Of a DNA stretch of 64,000 nt, positions 8,922-30,417 are shown piece by piece; the stretch's first letter is position 1, and each line of letters begins with the position of its first letter. The stretch covers positions 1 to 64,000 of the forward strand of contig JAKPEG010000117.1 in the NCBI GenBank assembly GCA_029552065.1, given 5' to 3'. This DNA is from Actinomycetes bacterium. Lineage in GTDB: Bacteria; Actinomycetota; Actinomycetes; Actinomycetales; Dermatophilaceae. The position numbers were made by a program, and so were the translations under genes. Below the pieces are notes generated by a model. The model did no database searches. It was not told the origin of the DNA and saw nothing but the letters and a program-made list of their open reading frames with translations.

Positions 8922-8965
8922 CTCGGCCCGGTCGGCATCCAGTCCAGGATGCCGACCGGGCCGAG
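8922..8965 (+). terminator. second perfect hairpin, 19-bp stem
   Basis: CTCGGCCCGGTCGGCATCC pairs with its exact complement across the loop AGTCCA. It stands 17 bases after the first hairpin and shares CCGGTCGGC with it. The pair isolates the lipoprotein transcript from the next gene. Confidence 0.7.
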
Positions 8966-28193: not shown

Positions 28194-28304
28194 GTCTTCC
28201 TCTCCGCTGGGGACTGTTCGTCGCCACCCGGGTCCCTGTCCGCGCCGACCGGTGGCCGCTGACCGATCATGCTACGGCTGTGGGGTCGGCACGCGACGAC
28301 GCCG

Positions 28305-28424: not shown

Positions 28425-29192
28425 GTGCCATTGGAGTTCCTGCCCAGTCTCGACACCGACAGCCCGCAGGGGACTATCGGGCGGCTCACCCTCGCCCAAC
28501 TCAAGCCGACCCAGAACGCCGTCGGCATGGACGAGGTCCGCGCCAAGGCCGACAAGATCGCCGCGATGGACGACAAGAAGCTGTCGGACTACCTGCTCCA
28601 ACGCGCGATCCCGGTCGTCATCGGCAACCCACCCGACGACTCGACTCCGGATGTCGATGCCTCGACGACCACCGGAGCCGCCGCGCCGGCGTGCTTCTAC
28701 CTCGTGGACCACCACCATCTCGCCGCTGCGCTGTGGATGGCCTTCGGGGACCTGTCCACGTCGGTCTTCGCCGAGGTCCGGCGCAACTGGCTGCCGCTCA
28801 CCGGGAAGCGCTTCTGGAAGGCGCTGGTGAACAACGCCTGGCTCTATCCCTTCGACGGTCTGGGCGCCGGCCCGCTTCCCCCCGACGTTCTGGCGCCGTC
28901 GGTGACCGACCTGCAGAACGATCTCTACCGCAGCCTCGCCTGGGTCGTGCGGGAGGAATACGGCTTCGTCAAGGACCCGCAGAACCCGACCTTCGCCGAA
29001 TTCCGCTGGGCGGCCTTCTTCCGCGAGCGGGTCCTCTTCGACGCCCAGCTCGCCGCGAGCAAGGACCCGATGGCGCTCACCCTCGCCGACATCGAACGCG
29101 ACGACCCGGACGACTATGCCGCGCAGCTCGCCTTCGCCCGGTTCCTCGCCACGAGCCCAGCGGCGGCCGGCCTGCCGGGCTTCGTCGGCTGA
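28425..29192 (+). CDS. ParB-like nuclease-domain protein (ParBc_2 type)
   Basis: This 255-residue protein matches the family of solitary ParB/Srx-like proteins: RLTLAQLKPTQNAVGMDEV near residue 20, AIPVVIG near 63, and FYLVDHHHLAAALWMAF near 93. Unlike plasmid or chromosome ParB, it has no ParA partner and no recognisable HTH domain. Function is unknown. The GTG at 28425 follows AAGGGAG by 7 bases, a strong ribosome site, and the track start at 28269 is too early. Its stop codon abuts a 17-bp tandem repeat and a palindromic array. Isolated between divergent and convergent metabolic genes, it may be a transferred gene. Confidence 0.8.
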   Translation: MPLEFLPSLDTDSPQGTIGRLTLAQLKPTQNAVGMDEVRAKADKIAAMDDKKLSDYLLQRAIPVVIGNPPDDSTPDVDASTTTGAAAPACFYLVDHHHLAAALWMAFGDLSTSVFAEVRRNWLPLTGKRFWKALVNNAWLYPFDGLGAGPLPPDVLAPSVTDLQNDLYRSLAWVVREEYGFVKDPQNPTFAEFRWAAFFRERVLFDAQLAASKDPMALTLADIERDDPDDYAAQLAFARFLATSPAAAGLPGFVG

Positions 29193-29238
29193 ACCCTCCT
29201 CCCCGCCGAACCCTCCTCCCCGCCGAACCCTCCCTCCC
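29191..29238. repeat. 17-bp tandem repeat, 2.8 copies
   Basis: GAACCCTCCTCCCCGCC occurs at 29191-29207 and 29208-29224, with a partial third copy at 29225-29238. The array begins inside the TGA stop codon of the ParB-like gene. It is a possible VNTR. Confidence 0.85.
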
Positions 29239-29243
29239 TTGGT

Positions 29244-29324
29244 GGAGTAAGCGCTTGAGTGTGCAGTTTTCGCGCAACTCAAGGCCTTGATCACGGTATT
29301 TCTGACCACTCAAGCGCTTACTCC
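29244..29324. repeat. 81-bp palindromic element with three phased boxes
   Basis: GGAGTAAGCGCTTGAGTG at 29244-29261 is repeated in exact inverse at 29307-29324. The central palindrome TCAAGGCCTTGA (29279-29290) sits midway. All three carry ACTCAAGSSCTT, with box centres at 29252.5, 29284.5 and 29315.5. The element is much richer in A and T than its flanks and lies between convergent 3' ends. Confidence 0.85.
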
Positions 29325-29415
29325 GGTGAGGGGGTGGAGGGTGGGGGTCCTGCCGGCGCCGGGAGATCGCCGCCTGGGGACACCGTGACCCGCTCGCACG
29401 TGGGCCGGGTTCCGG

Positions 29416-30417
29416 TCAGTAGAGGCTGGGTGCGTCGTCCGCGACGTAGTTCGCCCCCGAATAGGCCCCGATGCGGATCCGCTGCCGCTGGAGCACGAGG
29501 TCGCCCAGCAGGCTGGATGCACCGAACCGGAACCAGTGCGGGTCCAGCCAGTCGGGCCCGGCCACCTCGTTGACCGTGACGAGGAACTTCACCGCGTCCT
29601 TGCTCGTGCGGATCCCCCCGGCGGGCTTCACGCCGACCTGATCTCCGGTCCACTCGCGCCAGTCGCGCACGGCCTCCAGCATGACGAGGGTGACCGGCAG
29701 CGTCGCGGCTGGCGAGATCTTGCCGGTGCTCGTCTTGACGAAGTCGGCTCCGGCGAGCATCGCCAGCCACGAGGCCCGCCGGACGTTGTCATAGGTGACC
29801 AACTCGCCGGTCTCGAGGATGACCTTGAGCCGGGCGCGCGAACCGTCGGGGCGCACGCAGGCCGCCTTCACCGCGGCGATCTGCTCGAAGACCGTGAGGT
29901 GCCGCCCGGCGAGGAACGCCCCGCGGTCGATCACCATGTCGATCTCGTCGGCTCCGGCCGCGACGGCGTCGCGGGTGTCGGCGAGCTTCACCGGCATACT
30001 CGCTCGTCCCGAGGGAAAGGCGGTGGCCACTGCGGCGACGCGAACTGCGCTGTCTCCCAAGGCTTCCCGCGCTGTCGCGACCATGTCGCCGTAGACGCAG
30101 ACGGCGGCCGGACGCGGCGTGGTGGGGTCGCTGGGGTCGGGCACGAGCGCGCGCGCGGCCAGCCCCCGGACCTTGCCAGGGGTGTCCGAACCCTCGAGGG
30201 TCGTGAGGTCGATCATCGAGATGGCCAGGTCGACCGCCCATGCCTTGGCATCGGCCTTGATCGAGCGGGTGGACAGGCTCGCGGCCCGGGCGTCGGCACC
30301 GACCTGGTCGACACCGGGCAGCCCGTGCAGCCAGCGACCGAGCGCCGACTCGGTGAGTCGGGAGACGCCGAGCAGGTCACGGGCGCGGGCGGCGGCGTCG
30401 CCGGACGTGGTGCTCAC
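29416..30417 (-). CDS. deoC: deoxyribose-phosphate aldolase
   Basis: This 333-residue class I aldolase splits 2-deoxyribose-5-phosphate to acetaldehyde and glyceraldehyde-3-phosphate. The Schiff-base Lys is in DFVKTSTGK near residue 222, the second Lys in GVKPAGGIR near 262, and EIDMVIDRGAF near 157 holds the proton-relay Asp. It is longer than the 220-residue E. coli form and matches the long actinobacterial form with an added helical N-terminus. The GTG at 30417 is leaderless-type. It connects nucleoside breakdown to central metabolism in this region. Confidence 0.95.
   Translation of the reverse strand: MSTTSGDAAARARDLLGVSRLTESALGRWLHGLPGVDQVGADARAASLSTRSIKADAKAWAVDLAISMIDLTTLEGSDTPGKVRGLAARALVPDPSDPTTPRPAAVCVYGDMVATAREALGDSAVRVAAVATAFPSGRASMPVKLADTRDAVAAGADEIDMVIDRGAFLAGRHLTVFEQIAAVKAACVRPDGSRARLKVILETGELVTYDNVRRASWLAMLAGADFVKTSTGKISPAATLPVTLVMLEAVRDWREWTGDQVGVKPAGGIRTSKDAVKFLVTVNEVAGPDWLDPHWFRFGASSLLGDLVLQRQRIRIGAYSGANYVADDAPSLY

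Follow-up and report, generated by a model that had tools for sequence, protein, structure and literature searches.

A genus-restricted intergenic repeat in a Dermatophilaceae genome, probably a pair of protein-binding half-sites

Introduction

What is the palindromic, AT-rich island that lies between the 3' ends of two convergent genes in this actinomycete, and is it a singular site or one of many? The window (i.e., the whole stretch of 64,000 nucleotides of contig JAKPEG010000117.1 that was analysed) contains the island at 29244-29324, next to a ParB-like gene. The original prediction described it as three phased palindromic boxes and offered four possibilities: a protein-binding array, a centromere-like site, a small mobile palindrome or an RNA hairpin. 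Here, the element is followed through its own genome and those of its relatives.

Results

The copy in the window

Most of the description of the locus held. The three ACTCAAGSSCTT boxes lie at 29249-29260 (minus strand), 29277-29288 (plus) and 29308-29319 (plus), and the same motif with up to one mismatch occurs six times in the window against 0.35 expected, a number that none of 100 shuffles reached. The exact inverted 18-bp arms (29244-29261 and 29307-29324) were also confirmed, the sole other exact 18-bp inverted pair up to 100 bp apart in the window being a terminator-like hairpin at 8922-8965 (20 shuffles gave none). That hairpin, a perfect 19-bp inverted repeat with a 6-bp loop (CTCGGCCCGGTCGGCATCC...), is unrelated to the repeat family described below. 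The core centres are at 29252.5, 29284.5 and 29315.5, which gives the predicted spacing of 32 and 31 bp, and the low-GC island is real, with 51.9% GC over the 81 bp, 75-78% in the flanks and 71% over the window, where 0.04% of all 81-bp segments are equally AT-rich. The two 3' ends around the element belong to a gene for a ParBc_2 putative ParB-like nuclease (PF08857; 28269..29192, plus strand, with an uncertain start codon at 28269 or 28431 and the stop at 29192) and to a convergent gene for a DeoC/LacD-family aldolase (deoC; 29416..30417, minus strand, stop at 29416).

What did not survive was the three-box architecture: only the two outer boxes are conserved in the repeat family, the central one being particular to the window copy, and a genome-wide 13-mer scan found no second copy carrying a box at its centre. 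The left box 1 (GGAGTAAGCGCTTGAGTG, 29244..29261, plus strand), of the subfamily that we call A, opens a 40-bp arm at 29244-29283 (match to the arm model R1 over 29244-29283, plus strand, E 8.8e-12). The right box 1 (29307..29324, minus strand), its exact reverse complement, opens the arm 29324-29286 (R1 match over 29286-29324, minus strand, E 1.7e-8). In the interior of the element (29262..29306) the arms go on as TGTGCAGTTTTCGCGCAACTC on the left and GGTCAGAAATACCGTGATC on the right (minus strand), both of them recurrent arm variants of subfamily A, and the central TCAAGGCCTTGA (29279..29290) is the variable tip of a large palindrome and no third conserved box. Outside the boxes, a C-rich tract on the left (29188..29243, plus strand) includes three 17-bp tandem copies of GCCGAACCCTCCTCCCC at 29188-29238, and the right outer tract (29325..29345, minus strand), G-rich on the plus strand and C-rich on the minus strand, is imperfectly complementary to 29223-29243. 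Short tandem duplications also occur beside other copies of the element (L003, L005 and L131), as if the elements provoked slippage.

A dispersed family within one genus

When the box was searched for in the genome and its relatives, the window element turned out to be one copy of a dispersed intergenic repeat family. A census made with two sequence-only models, of the 40-bp A arm (R1) and of the 35-bp arm of a second subfamily, B (R2), gives about 43 copies in the window's own genome, G000 (a draft of 239 contigs, 88% complete and 6% contaminated), with about 27 loci of A and about 16 of B. The sole other genome of the genus examined, G001, has 14 A loci and no B copies. In 36 further genomes from the family and order no A was found, and R2 gave just E values of 0.05-0.1, i.e., chance level. 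A DNA search of 58 genomes agrees with this census. In G000, the 161-bp query gave 29 matches, many of them paired on opposite strands of a single locus, as expected of a palindrome, and a 13-mer scan with one mismatch allowed gave 46 matches, compared with 11 for the reversed control. A plasmid or phage origin was rejected, as the element matched nothing in the plasmid and phage collections or in IMG/VR. The same applies to a wider spread (a strict two-arm pattern gave two matches in GTDB contigs, from unrelated phyla and taken as chance) and to a known RNA family, for which Rfam gave only chance matches below threshold. As far as sequence comparison goes, the repeat is interspersed, non-coding and restricted to the genus.

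Two boxes at near-fixed distances

Subfamilies A and B have unrelated interiors and share the terminal box GTAAGCGCTTGASTG. The conserved columns of the arm, which runs inwards, stand at its start (box 1) and read GAGTAASCGCTTGASTG in subfamily A and GTAAGCGCTTGAGTGTTGCC in subfamily B. Conservation is limited to two boxes per element, which form either an inverted pair, with 63-64 bp from core to core, or a direct pair at 51-52 bp, both arrangements being about equally common. In each of the 17 complete inverted copies the cores lie 63 or 64 bp from one another, across the unrelated interiors of A and B. The 34 other copies were self-aligned at 85 offsets; 24 gave a good match, and 19 of these matched best at a direct offset of 51 or 52, in both species and both subfamilies. 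Four B copies even have two box 1 sequences exactly 52 apart, and one locus of the sister species (G001) has three boxes, at 52 and 104. The second box of the direct copies is a changed form, CGCGCTCA..TGTGC in G000 and GACTCGCCGCACGACTGTGC in G001, so that each species has its own version. Throughout the family, the tracts outside box 1 are C-rich (56% C and 18% G, where other 3' flanks have about 38% and 35%).

The idea of a protein-binding array of phased boxes has therefore to be modified: the three-box layout falls, and what stands are two terminal boxes that recur some 43 times at a spacing near whole turns of B-DNA (63 bp makes roughly six helical turns and 52 bp roughly five). This recurrent, near-fixed spacing is better evidence of phasing than the single window copy gave, and the closeness of 51-52 and 63-64 bp to whole turns is in itself no proof of it.

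Folding and genomic context

Strong folding on both strands was found for all 17 inverted copies (z about -3 to -16). Among the direct copies, those of A retain an inner stem (z 0 to -5) and those of B have z between about 0 and -3, as do the five G001 copies that were folded; on either strand, direct copies, above all those of G001, fold no better, or little better, than shuffles. Since most direct copies do not fold as hairpins, RNA structure is not the property that the copies share, and the RNA hairpin of the original prediction is lost as a common denominator: the boxes and their spacing alone are common to all forms of the element. The signature of an intrinsic terminator is lacking too, with no stable hairpin in some copies and no U-run in the sequences inspected.

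Every placed copy lies between genes or overlaps the end of one, in most cases close to the 3' end of a gene. Twelve of the 31 placed copies lie between convergent genes, 16 between tandem and three between divergent ones, the corresponding numbers for other intergenic regions being 7, 18 and 16 (a small background of regions of at least 80 bp, with genes called by a simple codon model). Divergent regions are thus avoided (Fisher p 0.007), and the convergent excess has p 0.06. The three copies between divergent genes, against the trend, are L128 (C108:45206), L014 (C129:27738) and L132 (C86:7002). Element L129 (G000:C230:24537-25212) stands directly upstream of a small pair of minus-strand genes, which may form a toxin-antitoxin operon, to judge from a single protein fragment. 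When copies were mapped onto two complete relatives, about 14 of 19 in one and 10 of 14 in the other, read by hand and in overlapping sets, fell in the terminus half; a clustering towards the terminus was discarded as too weak.

Occupied and empty sites in the sister species

A comparison of flanking proteins puts four of the 14 G001 loci at orthologous places. At the three such sites that were aligned, box 1 is nearly identical and the remaining intergenic DNA does not align. One of them, upstream of a glpK-like gene, is inverted in G000 and direct in G001; the other two, 1.2 kb apart on C233, frame one gene, whose homologue in G001 also lies between two copies. Between atpD and atpC, G001 has a gap of 532 bp with a three-box array, and in G000 a gene cluster of 5.4 kb stands there, bounded by an A copy on one side and a B copy on the other. 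This cluster (L167, G000:C129:20000-30000), on the minus strand, encodes PqqD-like, ABC transporter and methyltransferase proteins and is possibly a RiPP cluster. The idea of an autonomous transposon framed by two copies was dropped, both for the C129 pair, as Pfam found no recombinase in the cluster that it encloses, and for the C233 pair, whose framed gene is flanked by copies in G001 as well. Four B copies have no counterpart in G001, and there is no clean excision footprint, because the flanks differ at the empty sites; at the two cleanest of these, the gap between the convergent genes is 13 and 32 bp in G001, compared with 148 and 149 bp in G000. Occupied and empty orthologous sites together indicate that A predates the species split and is partly constrained, and that B expanded in G000 or was lost in G001.

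Discussion

The repeat is best read as a new, genus-restricted family of the REP/BIME-like kind and is probably a phased pair of half-sites for a putative DNA-binding protein, since two unrelated interiors share the terminal box, the distances are near-fixed in two orientations and the box is conserved. That such a protein reads the pair near gene 3' ends is a proposal to which we would give an even chance; in its favour are the dispersed family, the fixed geometry, the box constraint at orthologous sites, the non-RNA character and the genomic context. The working unit would consist of two half-sites, each comprising box 1 (GAGTAASCGCTTGASTG in A) with some 20 bp of the inner arm, inverted or direct. 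The putative protein would read this pair as double-stranded DNA, touching both half-sites, five or six turns apart, on one helix face; with a footprint centred about 5.5 bp inside the centre of AAGCGCTT, inverted and direct pairs would both be 52 bp apart. By analogy with BIME/REP, complexes at gene 3' ends might act as boundary elements (i.e., as a transcription stop, a supercoil sink or a roadblock), after the copies had spread within the genome by some route and part of them had been kept. Against a boundary role are the three copies between divergent genes and the G001 array between atpD and atpC, where a strong stop would be unexpected.

Could the repeat instead be a miniature transposon of the selfish kind, MITE-like or REP-like, whose ends are recognized by the box and whose location and conservation merely reflect tolerated insertions? 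This is possible, although we lean against it. It would suit a family of about 43 dispersed copies in which B is missing at four orthologous places of G001, as well as the contigs that end inside copies; MITE-type terminal inverted repeats, for their part, are present in the 17 inverted copies and not in the direct ones, whose pairs are not transposon-like. By eye, no consistent flanking target-site duplication was seen in the aligned copies, no longer element with the same ends appeared at the loci read, and the Y1 transposase RAYT (PF01797) had no match in either G000 or G001, both incomplete drafts (88% and 75% complete). Moreover, four of the 14 G001 loci are orthologous, with box 1 conserved at the three aligned. 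The small mobile palindrome of the original prediction thus gains a dispersed family and a subfamily without copies in G001, and neither the transposase nor the target duplication was seen.

A bidirectional transcription terminator or mRNA 3'-end hairpin, spread by its usefulness and forming a long stem in RNA from either side, would explain why all inverted copies fold on both strands, why the window copy sits between convergent genes and divergent regions are avoided, and why outer C-rich and G-rich tracts lengthen the stem. We nonetheless consider it unlikely. The B direct and G001 copies retain the boxes and their spacing while folding about like shuffles, the U-run is absent, the box sequence is more strictly conserved than a stem would require, and G001 carries one array within its atp operon. 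Besides, the arm variants do not preserve pairing: whichever way GTGA and GCAA arms are oriented, G-U pairs join them on just one strand.

The weakest reading, a parS-like site or centromere on which the neighbouring protein would act, has palindromic boxes and an adjacent gene on its side and is, for practical purposes, refuted: the neighbour is a ParBc_2 putative nuclease and not a partition ParB, its gene was not found in G001 (75% complete, 14 element loci) which rules it out as an obligate partner, and the remaining copies that were inspected adjoin unrelated genes, none ParBc_2-like. Among the other relatives searched the gene is missing in all but one, which has two weak matches. Clustering near the origin was looked for as well, and on two complete relatives the copies that were placed are scattered and not close to dnaA.

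How does the paired-half-site repeat compare with known systems? Mycobacterial interspersed repetitive units (MIRU), which form head-to-tail arrays, resemble it by description in being actinobacterial, with a direct period of about 50 bp and about 40 intergenic loci; the present repeat, however, forms pairs with half-sites, inverted or direct, and its direct forms are pairs and one three-box array at 52 bp. ERIC, RUP and Correia-type MITEs have one inverted-repeat form, some of them with target duplications. They share with it imperfect palindromes of about 80-130 bp, conserved ends, an intergenic location and a restriction to lineages, but its boxes occur in direct forms too, and its copies showed no duplication. 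The box core AAGCGCTT resembles the operators of the LacI family, for which pairs on one helix face are known, but the repeat sites lie at 3' ends and not at promoters, in about 43 places.

The nearest known kind are the GTAG- or CGTC-tagged REP/BIME, which are also short, dispersed and intergenic, often inverted pairs, downstream of coding regions and in a mostly convergent or tandem context, as is the repeat. They have been proposed as gyrase targets or hairpins at 3' ends (PMC3733652). The differences are that the repeat has no GTAG/CGTC tag by a stem-loop (20-40 bp), that its half-unit has no conserved stem-loop, that its spacing is near-fixed (51-52 direct or 63-64 inverted) and that it has just about 43 copies. 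A RAYT-mobilised REP was rejected for want of the transposase in G000 and G001, a test that applies to GTAG-type REP only. With neither the tag nor RAYT, the repeat is therefore filed not as REP but as a new interspersed extragenic repeat.

On a wider and more tentative view, which we hold to be less than probable, it might constitute a genus-specific chromosomal boundary system, in which a putative DNA-binding protein would recognize half-sites about five or six turns apart, in either orientation, at dozens of gene 3' ends, with box 2 having diverged together in each species. Such a joint divergence would be expected if the sites track their protein, but the homogenisation within species could come from gene conversion or recent spread instead of protein co-evolution.

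Palindromic interspersed repeats are best known from proteobacteria, where many are tied to RAYT, and this family comes from a high-GC genome in which RAYT was not found. A box pair at near-fixed distance, in two orientations and with two unrelated interiors, separates a site for a protein from an RNA hairpin, a distinction that has proved difficult for REP/BIME and that occupied and empty orthologous sites in two species make testable.
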